DNA from: Actinopolymorpha sp. NPDC004070
Lineage (GTDB): Bacteria > Actinomycetota > Actinomycetes > Propionibacteriales > Actinopolymorphaceae
NCBI RefSeq assembly: GCF_040610475.1
Contig: NZ_JBEXMJ010000004.1
Coordinates: 124,001-188,000 of the forward strand
DNA: 64,000 bases
Direction of reading: 5' to 3'
The notes under the pieces were generated by a model. It did no database searches. It was not told the origin of the DNA and was given only the letters and a program-made list of their open reading frames with translations. The translations under genes and the position numbers were made by a program. Below, piece by piece: positions 17,331 to 25,557 of this stretch. Numbering within the stretch: the stretch's first letter is position 1; each line of letters begins with the position of its first letter.

Positions 17331-18104
17331 TCAGCGGACGACGTGGCCGGCTGCGCGCAAGGTGTCCTTGACGTCGGCGATCCGGAGGTCGCCGAAGTGG
17401 AAGACGCTCGCCGCCAGCACGGCGTCCGCGCCGGCGTCGATAGCGGGCGGGAAGTCCGAGAGCTTCCCCGCTCCGCCGCTGGCGATCAACGGGATGTTCA
17501 CCACCTTGCGGACGGCGGCGATCATCTCCACGTCGTAGCCCGCCTTCGTGCCGTCGGCGTCCATGGAGTTGAGCAGGATCTCCCCCGCTCCCAGCTCGGC
17601 TCCACGCCGCGCCCACTCCACCGCGTCCAGCCCGGCGCCTCGGCGGCCGCCGTGCGTGGTCACCTCGAACCCGGACGGCATCCCCTCGGCCCGGCGCGCG
17701 TCCACCGACAGCACCAGCACCTGCGAGCCGAACCGGTGGGCGATCTCGGCCACCAGGTCCGGCCGGGCGATCGCCGCGGTGTTGACCCCGACCTTGTCCG
17801 CGCCGGCCCGCAACAGCCGGTCGACGTCCTCCACCGACCGCACGCCCCCGCCGACCGTCAGTGGGATGAACACCTGCTCGGCCGTACGGCGTACGACGTC
17901 CTGGGTGGTCTCCCGGCCCTGCGCGGACGCGGAGACGTCGAGGAACGTGAGCTCGTCCGCGCCCTCGGCGTCGTAGACCTTGGCCATCTCCACCGGGTCG
18001 CCGGCGTCGCGGAGGTCGGCGAAGTTGACGCCCTTCACGACCCGGCCGGCGTCGACGTCGAGGCACGGGATGACCCGGACCGCGAGGCTGCTGCTGCCGG
18101 TCAT
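17331..18104 (-). CDS. hisF: Imidazole glycerol phosphate synthase cyclase subunit
   Basis: The 257-residue (beta-alpha)8 protein has the HisF hallmarks [18 protein letters not shown] (first catalytic Asp), [33 protein letters not shown] (second catalytic Asp), and [12 protein letters not shown]. With HisH it makes IGP and AICAR from PRFAR. Its ATG overlaps the stop of the PEBP gene by 4 bases, so it is translated with that gene and is cut off from priA by five unrelated genes. The next gene in this direction is convergent, so hisI, which often follows hisF, is not here. Confidence 0.97.
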
Positions 18105-18634
18105 GCCTCGAAGGTCGGCACGAGCATGGCCCGGCCGACCGTGTGCCCGAACAGGTTGAAGCCGAGCAGCGCCGGGCTCGCACCCTCGGGCAGGTCGAGG
18201 GACTCGACGTCGAGGGCGTGCACCACGAAGTAGTAGCGGTGTGGGCCGTGTCCGGGCGGCGGCGCGGCGCCGAGGTACTGGCGTACGCCGCCGTCGTTGG
18301 TGAGCGTGACCGCGCCGTCGGGCAGCTTGGCGCCGTCGGCGTCACCGGCGCCGGTGGGCAGCTCGGTCGTGGTCACCGGGAGGTTGTAGACCGCCCAGTG
18401 CCAGAAGCCGCTGCCGGTCGGAGCGTCCGGGTCGTAGACGGTCACAGCGAAGCCGCGGGTCTCCTCCGGGAAGCCCGACCAGGCCAGGTGCGGTGAGGTG
18501 TCGGACCCGCCCGCACCGAAGATCCCGGACAGATGCGGCGTCGCCATCGTCTGACCGTCGGCGATGTCGTCGCTGGTCAAAGTGAACGAAGCCACCTTCG
18601 ACAGCGCGTCGTAGGGATTCGGTGCCGAGCTCAT
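18101..18634 (-). CDS. YbhB/YbcL-type PEBP (Raf-kinase-inhibitor-like) protein
   Basis: The 177-residue protein has the bacterial PEBP pattern: [40 protein letters not shown] (quoted in part; the DPDAPT and HW residues form the ligand pocket) and [22 protein letters not shown]. It has no signal peptide. Bacterial members bind small anionic or lipid-like ligands; function is poorly defined. A strong GAGGAGG site precedes the ATG. It overlaps hisF by 4 bases and lies 62 bp after plsC, so it may be read with the lipid operon upstream. Confidence 0.92.
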
Positions 18635-18696
18635 GGATCCTCCTCAGCCGGTGGTTCCTCGGTCCGCAGGACGAAGGCTAGCGCCATGCACCCCCG

Positions 18697-19629
18697 CTAG
18701 CGCCACGCACCGCGCTTGCGGCCCTCGGCGGGCGGAGCGGTCTGTTCCCAGATCCGCCGCCACGACGCGACCTGCGGCCCGGACGGGTCGGGCGTCTCGC
18801 CGCGCGCGGCTCGCCGGGTGGCATCCCACCAGGTGGTCGCGTCCTCGTCGAGCAGCCGCGCGACAGCCTCGGAGATGCGGGGCGCGAACGTACGCGGCGC
18901 CTCTCCCTCGGCCGGCCAGATCGGCGCACCGAACCGGATCCGCACCGGCATCCGGCCCGGACGGGGCCAGCCGCGCCCGCGCGGCATCGCGGCGTAGGAG
19001 CCGCGGATCCCGATCGGTACGACGGGTACGCCGTGCTCGACGGCCAGCCAGGACGCGCCCAGGCGGAACCGCGTGGCCCAGCCGTCCACCGACCGCGTGC
19101 CCTCGGGGAACACCACGACGTTCCAGCCCTGGTCGAGCAGGTCGCCCGGCGTGGTCGACAGGGTGCCGCCGCGGCGTTCGATCGGGAAGGTGTTGAACAC
19201 CATCGCCGAACCGCTGGCCCGCCACCAGGTGTCGAAGAAGTAGTCGGCCGCGGCCGCCACGGCGGTCCGCCGGCGCCACTCGTCCGGCAGCGAGCACAGG
19301 ATGAGCGGGGTGTCCAGGTGCGAGGTGTGGTTGGCCACGAACAGCACCGGCGGCTTCAGCGTGGTGAGGACGTCCAGCCCGGCCGCCTGCGGCGTGATCG
19401 TGGAACTCAGCAACGGGTGCAGACCGAAGCGCTGCACCACGTCGCGGACGGCGTTGGCGGTGGGGGTGCGAGCCCAGGCCGTCGGGAACACCGAGGGCTG
19501 CTTGGGCGGCTGGAACGGCTGGGCCGACAGCGGCACCAGCGGCCGCCGCCCCCAGCGCCAGCCGCGTGCCACCGTCCGTACGTCCTGCGCGGTCTCCCTG
19601 ACGAAGCGCACGGGGTTCTTGTTGCTCAT
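18697..19629 (-). CDS. 1-acyl-sn-glycerol-3-phosphate acyltransferase (PlsC family)
   Basis: The 310-residue protein has the acyltransferase motifs NHTSHLDTPLI (HX4D, catalytic), the Arg block FNTFPIERRG, VVFPEGTRSVDG (substrate phosphate binding) and VPVVPIGIRG. It would esterify lysophosphatidate or a related alcohol phosphate. The long N-terminal part (about 100 residues, without clear membrane segments) and C-terminal tail exceed the core domain. It lies 7 bases downstream of the LarA-like gene and ends the four-gene lipid-type operon. Confidence 0.9.
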   Translation of the reverse strand: MSNKNPVRFVRETAQDVRTVARGWRWGRRPLVPLSAQPFQPPKQPSVFPTAWARTPTANAVRDVVQRFGLHPLLSSTITPQAAGLDVLTTLKPPVLFVANHTSHLDTPLILCSLPDEWRRRTAVAAAADYFFDTWWRASGSAMVFNTFPIERRGGTLSTTPGDLLDQGWNVVVFPEGTRSVDGWATRFRLGASWLAVEHGVPVVPIGIRGSYAAMPRGRGWPRPGRMPVRIRFGAPIWPAEGEAPRTFAPRISEAVARLLDEDATTWWDATRRAARGETPDPSGPQVASWRRIWEQTAPPAEGRKRGAWR

Positions 19630-19636
19630 GCCGGGC

Positions 19637-21217
19637 TCACCGCACGTCCGAGATCAGGTGCGGCGGGTTGTGCGTGTAGGTGATCGACGGCGAACGCCCG
19701 ACCGTGCCGCTTACCATCTCCAGCGCGTCGGCCAGCGTGGACGCGGCCCGGAAGCCCATGCGCTCCACCGCACGGCGGTCCGCGCCGACCCACACGACGT
19801 CGCCCACGTGGTCCATCGCGTGCGCCGCCCAGTACCACATGTAGAACGGGTGCACGCCGTGGTAGGCGTACGACGTGCGGTAGAGGTGGATGTACCACGG
19901 GTCGGTGGCGTACTGCTTCTCGAAGCGCTGCTCGATGGTCGCCGGGTCGGTCGACTCCGCCAGCACCTCCTCGAAGAAGTCGACGTAGCTCGGGTGGTGC
20001 AGCTGGCTGAACTCGTACGGCACCGGGTGGTAGAGGATGACCGCCCCGCCGGGGCGGACCACCGGCTTGTTGCGGTAGGAGTTGAAGAAGTAGCCGAGCC
20101 CCATGCAGGTGGCGAGGATGGGGTTCATCACCGCGTCGACGTTGTACGGGCAGAGGTACGGCACGCCCATGATGAGGACGTCGGACTGGCCCTGCACCTC
20201 GACCGCCTGCTGGCGGTAGACGTTCTCCAGCGTCTTCTCGTGCACCGCCTCGGTCTCACCGGCGTGCACACCGGTGATGCCGTAGGGCGCCTGCATCCCC
20301 TGGAAGATCTTCCGCTTCATCTTCGACGGGGCCAGCGCGAGCCCGCGCTTGGCTGCCAGCATGGTGGCCTGGTCGCGGACGTTCCACTCCCACTCGCGCT
20401 TGTTGAGGAACTCGTACGGCGCGGGGAACACGTCGTTGTTGAGCGTGGTCTCGATCGTGAAGATCTTCAGGTGGTCCTTCAGCAGCCGGCCCATCCGCCA
20501 GGCGGAGTGGTGCATGGCCGACTTCTTGTGGTCCATGAAGGACCGCGAGTGGACCATGGTCTTGCTGTTGTGGTGGTGGCGCAGCGAGCGGTAGGACGCC
20601 AGGCCGATCGGCACCGACTTGTGCCCGCCGTCCATCGGCACGATGTTGATGTTGACGTACACCAGCAGGTCGGACTGCGCCGCCCGCTTGTTGATCTCGA
20701 CCTCTTCGCCCTGGTCGGTGGTCCCGATGAACTCGAGGTTGTCGGGGTCCTCGGCGTCGTGGTTGTAGAGCAGTCCGTCCGGCGCGAACGAGCGGTAGAC
20801 CCGCTCGCCCAGGGCGTGCTTGAGCTCGCTCGGCGTCATCCGCCGGTGCAGGGCCAGCGCCGCGATGATCTGCACGTCGTCCACGCCGGCCTCGGCAGCC
20901 ATCGTCAGCACCTGCTCGATGACCCGCTGCCGGATGTCCGGGCGCTTCATCGGGGGCAGCGGCAGCGACACGTCGTCGAAGGCGATGGTGAGCTTCATGC
21001 CCGGCCGCAGCAGCGCCCGCAGCGGCTCGGAGTTCTCCGGCTCCTCCAGGGCGTGTTTGATCGCCCCGTCGACGTCGCGCAACGCCGGCAGCGATTCCGG
21101 GGAATAGACCACCCGGGTGCCGAGCGGGAACTTCTCCAGCCGGAACCCTTCGCCCTCGTGGACGATGAGGGGTGGCGTACGGTCGTCGACCTCGAGTACG
21201 AATCCTGGTCGGCTCAC
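19637..21217 (-). CDS. LarA-like (DUF2088) protein
   Basis: The 526-residue protein resembles the nickel-pincer lactate racemase LarA: RPDIRQRVIEQVL, ALALHRRMTPSELKHALGERV (the LHR block), and MDGGHKSVPIGLASYRS, where the Lys corresponds to the LarA cofactor-attachment Lys. LarA itself is about 425 residues; this one is longer. No larB, larC or larE gene for cofactor synthesis is in the window. The GTG start is preceded by AAGGAG and overlaps the stop of the alcohol dehydrogenase gene (GTGA). Its role in the lipid-type operon is unknown; a 2-hydroxyacid or similar substrate is possible. Confidence 0.78.
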   Translation of the reverse strand: MSRPGFVLEVDDRTPPLIVHEGEGFRLEKFPLGTRVVYSPESLPALRDVDGAIKHALEEPENSEPLRALLRPGMKLTIAFDDVSLPLPPMKRPDIRQRVIEQVLTMAAEAGVDDVQIIAALALHRRMTPSELKHALGERVYRSFAPDGLLYNHDAEDPDNLEFIGTTDQGEEVEINKRAAQSDLLVYVNINIVPMDGGHKSVPIGLASYRSLRHHHNSKTMVHSRSFMDHKKSAMHHSAWRMGRLLKDHLKIFTIETTLNNDVFPAPYEFLNKREWEWNVRDQATMLAAKRGLALAPSKMKRKIFQGMQAPYGITGVHAGETEAVHEKTLENVYRQQAVEVQGQSDVLIMGVPYLCPYNVDAVMNPILATCMGLGYFFNSYRNKPVVRPGGAVILYHPVPYEFSQLHHPSYVDFFEEVLAESTDPATIEQRFEKQYATDPWYIHLYRTSYAYHGVHPFYMWYWAAHAMDHVGDVVWVGADRRAVERMGFRAASTLADALEMVSGTVGRSPSITYTHNPPHLISDVR

Positions 21218-22398
21218 CTGCTGCTCCTTAGGTCGAACGCCACCTTGACGGTCCCCAGCCGCCCGGCCGAGTGGGCATGGTCGAGCGCCTCCCGCCAACG
21301 GTAGAGGGGGTAACGGCCGCCGACCACGCCGTCCAACGGCGCGCTCGCGGCCAGGTCGAAGGCCCGGGCGAAGGCTTCGCGGCCCTGGGTGGCGTAGGTG
21401 CCCACGACCTCCAGCTCCCGGAACCACACCGGCGACAGGTCCGCTCCGGCGGCCGGCATGCCCGACAGCACCACCCGGCCGCCGGCCCGGGTGACCCGCA
21501 GAGTCGTGCTGAGGGAGTCCTTGCTGCCCACGGCGTCGATCGCGACGTCCACGCCGCCGAGCAGGAACTCACCGCTGCGGTCGGGGGAAAGCCGGAACGC
21601 CTGGGTGGCCCGGCGCACCCGGGCGGGCACCTCGTCGGGTGAGAGCACGTCGGTCGCGCCGAACGCCCTGGCCAGCTCGCGCTGCCGGGCGTGCTTGGCG
21701 ACCACGCTGATCCGGCCCGCCGGGGTCAGCTCGCGCAGCGCCAGCGTGGCGAACAACCCGACCGCGCCGGCACCGGACACCAGCACCGACCCGCCGTCGG
21801 GCACCTGGGCCCGCATCGCGGTGTGCACCGCGCAGGCGATCGGCTCGACCAGCACTGCGCGCTCGTCGGACAGCCCGTCGGGTACGGCGTGCAGCTGGCT
21901 GCGGTGGGCCACCAGCTGACCGCCCCAGCCGCCTCCGGTGTCGGCGCAGTAGCCGGTCTGCAGGCCGGGAGAGACGTGCCCGACCGTGACCCGGTCGCAC
22001 CGGTTGGTCTGCCCGTTAGCACACGACTGGCAGCGCTCCACCCCGCGGGCCGCGCAGGACAGCACCGGGTCGAGCACCACGCGGGTGCCGGCGGGCAGGT
22101 CCTCACAGTCGTCGACCAGCTCGCCGACCACCTCGTGGCCGGGCACGAACGGCATCGACACCAGGGCGGAGAAGTACATGCTGGTCTGCCCGAACAGCGC
22201 GCCGAGGTCGGAGCCGCAGATGCCGGACAGGATCGGCTTGACCCGCGCCCAGCCGGCGGCCACGCTGCGCGGCTCCGCACGGTTGACCAGCCGCACGGGT
22301 GCGGCCGGGCCGGTGAGGATGCCCGGAACCCGGCCACCGACCGCCCGGGCCGCGATGTAGCGAGGCATCGAGCGGTACATCTCCAACGCCAGCATCAT
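21214..22398 (-). CDS. Zinc-binding medium-chain alcohol dehydrogenase
   Basis: The 394-residue MDR protein has the catalytic zinc ligands in SGICGSDLGAL and PFVPGHEVVGEL, a structural zinc group around CAARGVERCQSCANGQTNRC, and a cofactor-binding VLVSGAGAVGLFATLAL. The cap GTYATQGREAFARAFDL and KVAFDL end are usual for the family. It would interconvert an alcohol and an aldehyde or ketone. The start ATG overlaps the stop of the reductase/HAD gene by 4 bases. It may act on the fatty alcohol or aldehyde product of that protein, an inference from position only. Confidence 0.88.
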   Translation of the reverse strand: MMLALEMYRSMPRYIAARAVGGRVPGILTGPAAPVRLVNRAEPRSVAAGWARVKPILSGICGSDLGALFGQTSMYFSALVSMPFVPGHEVVGELVDDCEDLPAGTRVVLDPVLSCAARGVERCQSCANGQTNRCDRVTVGHVSPGLQTGYCADTGGGWGGQLVAHRSQLHAVPDGLSDERAVLVEPIACAVHTAMRAQVPDGGSVLVSGAGAVGLFATLALRELTPAGRISVVAKHARQRELARAFGATDVLSPDEVPARVRRATQAFRLSPDRSGEFLLGGVDVAIDAVGSKDSLSTTLRVTRAGGRVVLSGMPAAGADLSPVWFRELEVVGTYATQGREAFARAFDLAASAPLDGVVGGRYPLYRWREALDHAHSAGRLGTVKVAFDLRSSR

Positions 22399-24674
22399 GA
22401 GCTGCTCCCGGAGGTCGCGCCGGGCAGGGCCAGTCGGGACACCGAACTCGAGGTCTTCCACTCCTCCACCGGCCAGCGGCCCTTGCGGGCCTCCCGCCAC
22501 AGGTGGACGTCGGGGCTGACCGCGACCGGGCGGCCGACCACGCGCAGCATCGGCAGGTCGGAGTGGCTGTCGGCGTAGGCGTACGACTTCGACAGGTCGA
22601 GGCCGCGCTGGGCGGCGTAGCGCTTCAGCCAGGCCGCCCGAGCCTCGCCCACCAGCGGCGGGCCGGACAGGAACCCGGTGCACCGGCCGCGGTCGTCGAC
22701 GGCCAGGTCTGCCGCCACGATCTCGTCGAACAACGGCTCCAGCGGGCGGGTCAGCGGACGGATCGCGCCGGTGATGAGCACGGTGCGGTGCCCGGCCGCC
22801 TGGTGGGCGCGCACCCGGCGCAGGGCCGCGGCGGACACGCGTTCGAGCACGTGCTGGGACAGCGTCTCGTCGACGATGTGCTCCAGCTCGGCGAGGTCGG
22901 CCCCGGCGTAACGGCGGTAGACCGAGCGCAGGAAGCGGCCGCGGTCCTTGCGTTCGGCGTTCAGGAAACCGGGCAGCCGCCGCACCAGCGCGCCGAGCTC
23001 GCGGGCCCGGCCCTGCTGGTCCAGCTCGGGCATCCGCAGCCAGAGGTAGGTCTCCACGACGTTGGACGACAACAGCGTTCCGTCCATGTCGAACGCTGCC
23101 ACGATGTCCTCACCCGCGGGCAGCTGCGACGCCACCGCGGGGGTGGAGCGGCCGCGCCGGCGGCGGATCACGTCGTACCTGCGCATCGCCTCGGTGACGG
23201 CCGGGCAGTGCACCTCGACGAAGTAGTGGTGCCAGTCGAAGTTGGTGATGTCGAAGGAGAAGTCCCGCTGGTCCTCCAGGTCGAGGCCGTTGTAGAGCGC
23301 GACGGTGCGGTCGTCGGTGAAGACCAGCTCGGTCTCGAGGTAGGGGCGGTACAGGTCGTGGTAGCGGCGCAGGAAGTCCAGCCGCCGCCGCTGCTGGTCG
23401 AGGTCTCGGGCGAGCTTGCGGACGCGTTCGCCGCGTGGTGCGTGGGTGATGAGGAAGTCGGCCGCCTTGTGGGCGCGTTCGCCGAGTGCGAGTGTGCGTT
23501 CGACCTGCTCACCGCCGGGGAACCGCCACGTCGGCAGCCGCACCGCGCCGCGTTCGCTCATGTCGAACGGGTGCGCGTCGAAGTACTCGTGGACGAGCTC
23601 GAACACCATTGCGAACGTGAGCGGGTTGCGCAGTCCCGACGTCACCTGGAAGTACGCCGGACTGCCCGGGTCGGGGCGCTCCGCCGCGGCCGCCAGGGTG
23701 GCGTTGACCACGTGGTCGACCGGCACGATGTCGCACTGGGAGTCCGGGCTCGCGGGGAACTCCGGCAGCTCACCCCGGCCGTAGGCCAGGATCAGCGGCT
23801 CGGCCATCTTGAAGCCCTCGATCCAGCCCGGGTGGGGGGTCTCGAGTGCGCTCTCGATGATGCTCGGCCGCATGATCGTGACCGGCAGCGGTGCGCCGAC
23901 CTCCTCCACGACGCGTTCGCCCAGAGCCTTGGTGAACGTGTAGACGTCGGTCCAGCCGAGCGACCGTGCCCGCTCCCCGCCGGCCTCGACCAGCTTGGTG
24001 TCCACCCACTCCTTGCGGCGCCGCTCGGTGTCCTGGGCGGAGGTGATCGGCCCGGCCCGGCGGTGCTCCCGCTCGGCCTCCCGGCGCAGCTTGGAAAGGA
24101 CGCCGGGCGCCCGCGAGGTCTCCTCGATCCGGTCGCGCATGGCCTGGCCCCAGCGGGCCTCGGTGCGCCAGTCGGCGGTGTGGTCGACCGGCCCCTCGGG
24201 GATCGCGCCGCGGCGGCGGCCGGAGACGTACGCCGTGGACACGTGGACGTAGTGGGCCTGGCTGCCGCTGTCGAGGATGCGGCGCAGCAGCATCTCGGTG
24301 CCGAGCACGTTGGTCTGGAACGCCTGGTGGATCGGCGGGTCGAACGACACGTCGCCGGCGCAGTGGATCACCACGTCGAGATCGCCCGGCAACTCCGGAA
24401 CGTCGGACAGGTCGCCTTCGAGCACGCTCATCCGGGCGTCGAGCAGGGCCGCGGTGTCACCGTCGTACCGGGACCGGGCCTGTTCGAAAATCGGCTTGTT
24501 GAGCAGTTGCTCCATCCGTGCCCGCCCGGTCAGCGACCCCTTGGGGCGGACCAGTGCCACCACGTGGGTGCCCGGGAGGTCACGGAGGATGCGGTGCAGC
24601 AGTGCCTCGCCGACGAAGCCGGTGACGCCGGTGAGTAGCATCCGCTTCCCGTCGAGTCGCTCCCTGAGCCTCAA
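22395..24674 (-). CDS. Fatty acyl reductase (SDR) - HAD-IB hydrolase fusion
   Basis: The 759-residue protein has two enzymes. Residues about 8-380 are an extended SDR of the fatty-acyl-CoA reductase/male-sterility type: MLLTGVTGFVGEALLHRIL (NADPH binding), VIHCAGDVSFD, HVSTAYVSG, and the catalytic YTFTKALGE (YxxxK), followed by a FAR-type C-terminal region to about 500. Residues about 515-740 are a HAD-IB phosphatase: AFDMDGTLLSSNVVE, VLITGA and YADSHSDLPML. I chose the TTG start because GGAGG stands 7 bases upstream and the SDR fold starts 11 residues later. It is the first gene of the lipid-type operon; the 163 bp before it would hold the promoter. Confidence 0.85.
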   Translation of the reverse strand: MRLRERLDGKRMLLTGVTGFVGEALLHRILRDLPGTHVVALVRPKGSLTGRARMEQLLNKPIFEQARSRYDGDTAALLDARMSVLEGDLSDVPELPGDLDVVIHCAGDVSFDPPIHQAFQTNVLGTEMLLRRILDSGSQAHYVHVSTAYVSGRRRGAIPEGPVDHTADWRTEARWGQAMRDRIEETSRAPGVLSKLRREAEREHRRAGPITSAQDTERRRKEWVDTKLVEAGGERARSLGWTDVYTFTKALGERVVEEVGAPLPVTIMRPSIIESALETPHPGWIEGFKMAEPLILAYGRGELPEFPASPDSQCDIVPVDHVVNATLAAAAERPDPGSPAYFQVTSGLRNPLTFAMVFELVHEYFDAHPFDMSERGAVRLPTWRFPGGEQVERTLALGERAHKAADFLITHAPRGERVRKLARDLDQQRRRLDFLRRYHDLYRPYLETELVFTDDRTVALYNGLDLEDQRDFSFDITNFDWHHYFVEVHCPAVTEAMRRYDVIRRRRGRSTPAVASQLPAGEDIVAAFDMDGTLLSSNVVETYLWLRMPELDQQGRARELGALVRRLPGFLNAERKDRGRFLRSVYRRYAGADLAELEHIVDETLSQHVLERVSAAALRRVRAHQAAGHRTVLITGAIRPLTRPLEPLFDEIVAADLAVDDRGRCTGFLSGPPLVGEARAAWLKRYAAQRGLDLSKSYAYADSHSDLPMLRVVGRPVAVSPDVHLWREARKGRWPVEEWKTSSSVSRLALPGATSGSSS

Positions 24675-24837
24675 CTCTTCCCCTCCGTCGACATGGTGAT
24701 GACAGGTCCAGCGGGGTCCCCCGGGCTGGTTTCGCAACACCCTATCCGCACGCCCGCGGGCAACGGCCCAGCCCGTCCGGAAGTCGCTCGCGGATCGCGC
24801 GCTTCGCCCGTTCGCCGCACTCCAGGGTGCGTCGTGG

Positions 24838-25557
24838 TCACGCGACCGCGGCGAGCGCTTCCTCCAGGGTGAACGCACCCGCGTACAACGCCGTGCCGAC
24901 GATGGCGCCCTCCACTCCGAGCGTGGTGAGGGCCGCGATCGCGCGCAGGTCGTCCAGGCTGGACACCCCGCCGGAGGCGACCACCGGCCGGTCCGTCGCC
25001 GCGCACACGGCGCGCAGTAGGTCGACGTTCGGGCCCTGCAGCATGCCGTCCTTGTTGACGTCGGTGACGACGTACCGTGCGCACCCTTCGGCGTCCAGCC
25101 GGGCGAGAGTCTCGAACAGGTCGCCGCCCTCCCTGGTCCAGCCGCGCGCGGCGAGGGTGCGGCCGCGTACGTCCAGGCCGACCGCCACCCGGTCGCCGTA
25201 CTCGGCGATCGCGCGGGCACACCACTGCGGGTTCTCCAGCGCGGCGGTGCCCAGGTTGACCCGGGTGCAGCCGGTGCTCATCGCCCACGAGAGTGCGTCG
25301 TCGTCGCGCAGGCCACCGGACAGCTCCACCTGTACGTCGAGGCGGCCGATGATGTCGGCGAGCACGGCGCGGTTGTCGCCACGGCCGAACGCCGCGTCCA
25401 GGTCGACCAGGTGCACCCACTGCGCACCGGCCCGCTGCCAGGCCATGGCCGCCTCCAGCGGACTGCCGTACTGGCCGCCCGTGCCGGCCTTACCCTGCAC
25501 CAACTGGACGGCCTGGCCGTCGACGACATCGACCGCGGGAAGCAACGCGAGGCTCAT
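24838..25557 (-). CDS. priA: Phosphoribosyl isomerase (PriA, HisA/TrpF type)
   Basis: The 239-residue (beta-alpha)8 enzyme converts ProFAR to PRFAR in histidine synthesis; in actinobacteria the same protein usually also isomerises PRA for tryptophan. Visible marks are [22 protein letters not shown] (first catalytic Asp and the PriA-type loop), [28 protein letters not shown] and [15 protein letters not shown] (second catalytic Asp). The Trp and Arg residues in the RGWTREGG loop fit PriA better than HisA. It is 84 bp downstream of hisH. Confidence 0.94.

Follow-up and report, generated by a model that had tools for sequence, protein, structure and literature searches.

A conserved actinobacterial operon with a LarA-like protein and a fatty acyl reductase, and its putative role in alkyl glycerolipid synthesis

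Described systems closest to the operon

The LarA proteins grouped as LarAH14/15/16 (NF052592) are an already known, NCBIfam-named family to which no reaction is given in the available parts of PMC7583248 and PMC12611868 (these and the other papers are cited here for the available parts of their text). Assays of one purified member, the Frankia LarAH14, showed none of seven hydroxyacid activities (PMC7583248, Table 1; its sequence was not compared with the one described here). A gene of this family was found in a 64,000-nucleotide stretch of Actinopolymorpha sp. NPDC004070 (contig NZ_JBEXMJ010000004.1, positions 124,001 to 188,000; hereafter the window), within an operon that contains a fusion of a fatty acyl reductase (FAR) and a HAD phosphatase domain, followed by an alcohol dehydrogenase (ADH), the LarA-like protein and a PlsC-type acyltransferase. 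The LarA-like protein matched PF09861 (Lar_N) at 5.4e-42 and NF052592 at 932 bits, above the cut-off of 740, and belongs to the family.

The group 17 LarA of Blautia and Streptococcus resembles the window protein in having a single catalytic histidine, but in group 17 an invariant Asn stands where other LarA proteins have His174, and the context is one of carbohydrates (PMC12611868), whereas the window LarA has a lipid-type context and an uncertain register at this place. The myxobacterial ether-lipid genes (the elb operon and MXAN_1674-1676) also bring together a FAR, an acyltransferase and a HAD or a dehydrogenase. Compared by description, however, no LarA is described for these operons in the available text, ElbD also contains ligase and acyl carrier protein domains, and in one operon the formation of the ether is ascribed tentatively to alkyl-dihydroxyacetone phosphate synthase (AGPS) (PMC9131029), whereas AGPS was found to be uncoupled from the window-type operon. 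The FAR domain matched the alcohol-forming FAR 7eoz over its full length (residues 3-516, E 5.8e-53) and differs from it by the HAD-IB fusion. No description of an actinobacterial operon of this make-up was found among the papers listed, and the FAR-HAD/ADH/PlsC context of LarAH14/15/16 was not found in the available text of PMC7583248, of which Table S1 may list some such neighbours; the lipid pathway appears to be undescribed.

The four genes are inherited together, as a single metabolic unit. The operon is proposed to make a fatty-alcohol-containing (alkyl) glycerolipid in dependence on the nickel-pincer nucleotide (NPN), a putative assignment drawn from family membership and gene neighbourhood, to which a probability of about 0.4 is given.

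Conservation of the four genes as one unit

An earlier reading of the window from its sequence only had described four genes joined by 4-base overlaps or a 7-base gap and had named conserved clustering elsewhere as its own test. Two 4-base overlaps and the 7-base gap were found as claimed, and the family matches agreed with the four names: PF07993 (7.1e-52), PF03015 (8.8e-9) and PF12710 (3e-38) for the fusion, PF00107 and PF08240 for the ADH, and PF01553 (6.7e-20) for the PlsC-type protein, in which the NHxSHxD and PEGxRS motifs were conserved. The clustering itself was found to be strong. The LarA loci compared were the best 80 of 580 confirmed, a set biased toward close relatives (LarA identity 63-93%), and FAR, HAD, ADH, LarA and PlsC were found in the same order and on the same strand in 68 of the 69 loci with room on both sides. 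By tblastn, ADH was matched in 76/76 and PlsC in 73/74 loci with room. A second set of 30 loci, including the operon of the window, contained ADH beside LarA in all 30 and PlsC in 29. The loci came from Actinopolymorpha, Kribbella, Nocardioides, Frankia, Actinomadura, Actinoallomurus, metagenome-assembled genomes titled Acidimicrobiales and Nitriliruptorales, and others.

LarA was found over the family cut-off in 86 of 396 sampled genomes of the phylum. The FAR-HAD fusion (E 1e-40 or better) was present in 14/14 tested LarA-carrier genomes versus 1/66 non-carriers, and in none of the ten genomes among these 66 that have distant LarA relatives alone. The lone non-carrier with FAR-HAD (G064) is a metagenome-assembled genome, 62% complete and congeneric with the carrier G052. 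In genome G065, FAR-HAD and LarA were both retained, on separate contigs. The distance matrix of LarA was correlated with those of the other proteins at r 0.90-0.93 (72 loci; 0 of 500 in the permutation test), shared descent still being part of this signal. LarA was the slowest-changing member, with a mean distance of 0.33 versus 0.45-0.52 for the others.

Clustering of the open reading frames across the 80 loci gave no additional gene in more than 15 loci, a method that undercounts (ADH was grouped in 44 loci and PlsC in 38), so that a small fifth member is possible. The neighbours recurring within lineages, named by eye, were larE, larC, larB, a TetR-type regulator (10 loci) and an acyl-CoA synthetase (13 loci). 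The TetR-type gene was observed upstream of FAR-HAD on the opposite strand in one cluster of loci (L055, L056, L068, L071, L074, L079, L080, L081, L083 and L084), L064 and L137 show the same placement, and in L073 the gene comes immediately behind PlsC; the naming is by eye, and the family hits were weak for L064. Because a TetR-type gene adjoins the operon in these loci, the operon is probably regulated.

In the window, the operon and a PEBP/YbhB-like gene were found inside a his cluster, from hisA to hisF (window 17331-25557; Table 1). Both hisA and hisF were matched near the operon in just 7/80 loci, namely in Actinopolymorpha (L005), Kribbella (L008, L013, L014, L019 and L025) and a genome titled Streptomyces sp. 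SID13031 (L017), and the his genes are therefore placed outside the unit. The PEBP/YbhB gene was matched in 1/80 loci, the close relative L005.

Table 1. Positions, in the window, of the operon genes, of the domains and residues discussed, and of the flanking genes
Feature	Position	Strand	Remark
FAR-HAD fusion	22395-24674	-	TTG start at 24674, preceded by GGAGGGGAAGAG
FAR domain, residues 1-515	23130-24674	-	NAD_binding_4 and Sterile domain; alcohol-forming fatty acyl reductase type
HAD-IB phosphatase domain, residues 516-759	22395-23129	-	TIGR01490
ADH	21214-22398	-	ATG start; 4-base overlap with the FAR-HAD stop
LarA-like	19637-21217	-	GTG start; 4-base overlap with the ADH stop
His124 codon	20846-20848	-	equivalent of the first catalytic His (His108) of LarA
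Lys200 codon	20618-20620	-	equivalent of Lys184 of LarA, the covalent NPN binder
His215-His216 codons	20570-20575	-	one is the equivalent of the nickel ligand His200 of LarA
PlsC-type acyltransferase	18697-19629	-	PF01553; 7-base gap after the LarA stop
PEBP/YbhB-like gene	18101-18634	-	flanking; judged outside the unit
hisF	17331-18104	-	flanking, downstream of the PEBP/YbhB gene; outside the unit
hisA/priA	24838-25557	-	flanking, precedes FAR-HAD; outside the unit

Residues of the encoded proteins and supply of the nickel-pincer nucleotide

The numbering and roles of the LarA residues His108, His174, Lys184, His200 and Arg75 follow the cited LarA papers, and the counts refer to 107 close and 8 distant relatives, the window protein being aligned to solved LarA proteins. 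His124 and Lys200 were found to be conserved in 107/107 close and 8/8 distant relatives, followed by His215 (105/107) and His216 (107/107), both of which were present in all distant relatives. The place of Arg75, which takes part in NPN binding, never contained Arg and was occupied by Leu (85), Ile (16), Cys (5) or Val (1) in the close relatives and by Leu (7) or Ile (1) in the distant ones. The loop of the second catalytic histidine, His174 (residues 184-197), contained a His in 1/107 close and 0/8 distant relatives and none in the window protein. This loop, which precedes the NPN lysine, has four residues fewer than its counterpart in 2yjg, and its register is uncertain between pairwise alignments. 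Within it, Asn189 was invariant (107/107) and Asn191 was found in 96/107. The best solved relatives of the window LarA were 9q2u/9q3k and 9q3j, which we take, from the molecule name, to be probably the group 17 LarA of Blautia and Streptococcus; Asn189 or Asn191 may play the part of the group 17 Asn.

The second His is likewise absent from groups 14 and 15 (PMC12611868), and such LarA proteins may catalyse another hydride-mediated reaction (PMC7583248). Because one catalytic His and Arg75 are gone and the LarAH14 of Frankia showed none of the seven activities, the name hydroxyacid racemase does not simply apply to the LarA-like protein; judged by its residues, with one catalytic His remaining and Arg75 missing, it is unlikely to be an ordinary racemase.

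A second LarA-type gene was observed in the same genome (G000:C1:80608-81945; L129:8599-10512), with an Asn in a GNPYGG stretch at the group 17 Asn position. Genes nearby, named by eye, resemble those of a sulfatase, of a fucosidase-like enzyme, of a GntR-type regulator and of a protein like 3-hydroxyisobutyrate dehydrogenase.

The FAR domain was found to contain a conserved Rossmann motif TGxTGFxG (of the TGxxGxxG type), followed by Tyr245 and Lys249, which were kept in 94/94 rows. The sequence features of fatty acyl-CoA reductases are present in the window FAR, which is a predicted reductase. The HAD domain matched TIGR01490 at 111 bits against a cut-off of 98, and contained the Asp nucleophile in 92/92 rows with letters and Arg164, Asp187 and Asp191 in 93/93 rows; the predicted HAD-IB phosphatase motif set (Asp nucleophile, Thr/Ser, Lys/Arg and Asp-Asp) is intact. 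The second Asp position of motif I was occupied by Asp in 56 and by Glu in 36 of 92 sequences, and the residue after this position was observed to be Asn in 25 sequences. The best match of the fusion was found in A. singaporensis (97% identity).

The ADH is assigned to the Zn-dependent medium-chain dehydrogenases, of the polyol/threonine dehydrogenase type. C61, H88, E89 and the four structural-zinc Cys were each conserved in at least 95% of 97 sequences. By their residues, the FAR, HAD and ADH partners look active. The N terminus of the ADH was also observed to be extended; the extension contains basic residues, in a pattern like RSxxRYxAxR in many of the 14 rows examined, and perhaps serves membrane or partner contact.

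The LarA-like protein had been called a member of the nickel-pincer family from its sequence, and this assignment stands beyond homology because larB, larC and larE were found to be linked to the operon and to co-occur with it. Co-occurrence was counted in 58 carriers, namely the genome of the window and 57 of 66 genomes over the family cut-off with just one match to the LarA family (the other nine were not counted). LarC was present in 52/58 and LarE, over its cut-off, in 52/58 of these genomes, versus 0/20 genomes without LarA for each, a comparison that is confounded by lineage, the 20 controls all being from the class of the window, outside which 57 of the 58 carriers fall. The genome of the window contained both LarC and LarE. 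All three of larB, larC and larE were matched near the operon in 15/80 loci, in several arrangements (the larB query, the copy of L042, reached 172.5 bits, slightly below its cut-off of 175). In G051, larE, larB and larC run on after PlsC, with larE overlapping PlsC by 4 bases, and each passes its curated cut-off; LarE and LarC were found at most 4 kb from LarA in G075, G226, G289 and G326. PMC7583248 considers the use of NPN improbable in groups 12, 13 and 16; we argue that at least the LarA clade of the operon does use it.

Proposed lipid product and rival explanations

In the proposed alkyl glycerolipid pathway, of which the steps are given in no established order, the functions of the FAR, the acyltransferase and the HAD domain are taken from their established families. 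The FAR domain would convert a long-chain acyl thioester with NADPH into a fatty alcohol, the acyltransferase (PlsC, or PlsY in the family f19) would acylate a glycerol-phosphate-type acceptor, and the HAD domain would take the phosphate off. The Zn-dehydrogenase may interconvert a ketone and a secondary alcohol on the phosphorylated backbone, in the manner of an acyl- or alkyl-dihydroxyacetone phosphate (DHAP) reductase. On an intermediate of this kind, the LarA-like protein may act by NPN hydride transfer; because just one catalytic His remains, the reaction would not be an ordinary racemisation. A FAR, a HAD and an acyltransferase are likewise components of the myxobacterial elb ether-lipid operon (PMC9131029), which favours such a route.

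The glycerol-type acceptor is suggested by the family f19. PlsY was found directly upstream of FAR-HAD in 14/14 f19 loci with that side visible, G065 included (PF02660 was confirmed in 12 of the 14, and G227 and G065 rest on tblastn alone; four further f19 loci were cut off on the upstream side), and PlsC was unmatched in the fetched stretches of those 14 loci. In some f19 loci, ADH and LarA were found several kilobases apart. The nine fetched carriers outside f19 contained PlsC in 9/9 and ADH beside LarA in 8/9. The single-contig genome G080 (99% completeness) contained no PlsY and two PF01553 acyltransferases, one of which is that of the operon. The presence of PlsY, a glycerol-3-phosphate acyltransferase, in the stead of PlsC points indirectly to a glycerol-type acceptor. 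The glycerol-type intermediate of the sequence-only reading thus gains indirect support. The sequence-only interpretation is partly supported, by the clustering, the NPN tie and, indirectly, this acceptor, and its lipid with an alkyl or a hydroxyacyl chain is a candidate product.

The main rival, which is possible but doubtful, is a hydroxy-acid lipid: the substrate of the LarA-like protein would be an alpha-hydroxy acid, which could be glycerate, a sugar acid or a 2-hydroxy fatty acid, the ADH would make or remove the 2-oxo form of this acid, the acyltransferase would acylate the hydroxyl, and the FAR would give a fatty alcohol or reduce the hydroxyacyl thioester. Those LarA enzymes for which PMC7583248 and PMC11770544 give a reaction act on 2-hydroxy acids, and the NCBIfam name of the family is 'hydroxyacid isomerase'. 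A class III CoA-transferase also adjoins LarA in 4/8 distant-relative loci (L120, L121, L122 and L125, LarA about 40% identical; one by Pfam and three by similarity), a hint that the substrate in these loci is an acid. Against these points stand the lack of hydroxyacid activity in the Frankia LarAH14 (PMC7583248), the absence of Arg75 and of the second His, an operon without a carboxylate-activating gene, and the PlsY beside FAR-HAD in f19, which points to glycerol phosphate. An improbable reading is that the operon offers another way to supply the glycerol-phosphate backbone or to control its stereochemistry, in which the ADH would reduce DHAP or acyl-DHAP, LarA would handle C2 and gpsA would be partly replaced. 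In favour of this, the ADH is similar to polyol and sugar-phosphate dehydrogenases, and gpsA (PF07479) was unmatched in 23/58 operon genomes, the single-contig G011, G041 and G080 among them, versus 1/22 without the operon (Fisher p 0.002), a clue only, since 18 of the 22 controls are from the class of the window and lineage is confounded. Weak gpsA matches (75-93 bits) were found in 7 further operon genomes; however, matches over 100 bits were found in 28, that of the window included, and the FAR is left unexplained by such a role.

A role in wax ester or storage lipid synthesis by way of a fatty alcohol, with the ADH reducing the aldehyde and LarA as a mere passenger, would fit a FAR of the alcohol-forming type, and an acyltransferase and a phosphatase occur in triacylglycerol synthesis too. 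It is very improbable: the operon contains no wax synthase (at the level of the operon; a genome-wide search was not made), and LarA, the most conserved member and kept with FAR-HAD even where unlinked (G065), is hardly a passenger. That the four are housekeeping genes lying by chance in the his cluster is suggested by their place between hisA and hisF in the window, but a his context in 7/80 loci stands against four genes together in 68/69, and this explanation, of negligible probability, is refuted by that gene order and by FAR-HAD in 14/14 carriers versus 1/66 non-carriers.

Several observations weigh against the alkyl glycerolipid reading, among them the lineage bias of the LarC and LarE controls. 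PlsC was unmatched in L039, the sole exception among the 69 loci, and in L090 of the second set, and ADH was unmatched in the operon of the carrier G263. Both LarC and LarE were absent in 5/58 genomes (G084, G106, G213, G263 and G294), in which LarA still keeps the NPN Lys and His residues. The PlsY of the f19 operon, which is the sole PlsY of the genome in 8/13 f19 genomes, may be a housekeeping enzyme placed there. An AGPS homologue (E 1e-30 or better) was present in 23/58 operon genomes versus 11/20 controls, and no report tying ether lipids to such genes in these genera was found among the papers listed.

The genome of the window has an AGPS homologue of its own (G000:C11:161661-163364; L163:631-2337; 2uuu, E 5.5e-80), and no AGPS gene was found inside the operon. 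An AGPS route for the operon was dropped because AGPS is uncoupled from it. A quite improbable form of the alkyl glycerolipid pathway is that the LarA-like protein replaces the alkyl-DHAP synthase, an NPN hydride transfer, in place of an inversion of stereochemistry, joining the FAR-made fatty alcohol or aldehyde to the glycerol-phosphate backbone. If true, FAR, the acyltransferase, an NPN ether-forming enzyme, the ketone reductase and the phosphatase would make a complete AGPS-independent ether-lipid pathway, and the nickel-pincer cofactor would, to our knowledge for the first time, have a role outside isomerases.

The single-histidine relatives of LarA are an open problem, and the operon ties the clade described here to NPN. 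The search for a substrate is narrowed to glycerolipid-type intermediates, in the culturable genera Kribbella, Nocardioides and Actinopolymorpha. If the alkyl glycerolipid reading is true, the reach of the nickel-pincer cofactor would extend from small hydroxyacids to lipid synthesis.

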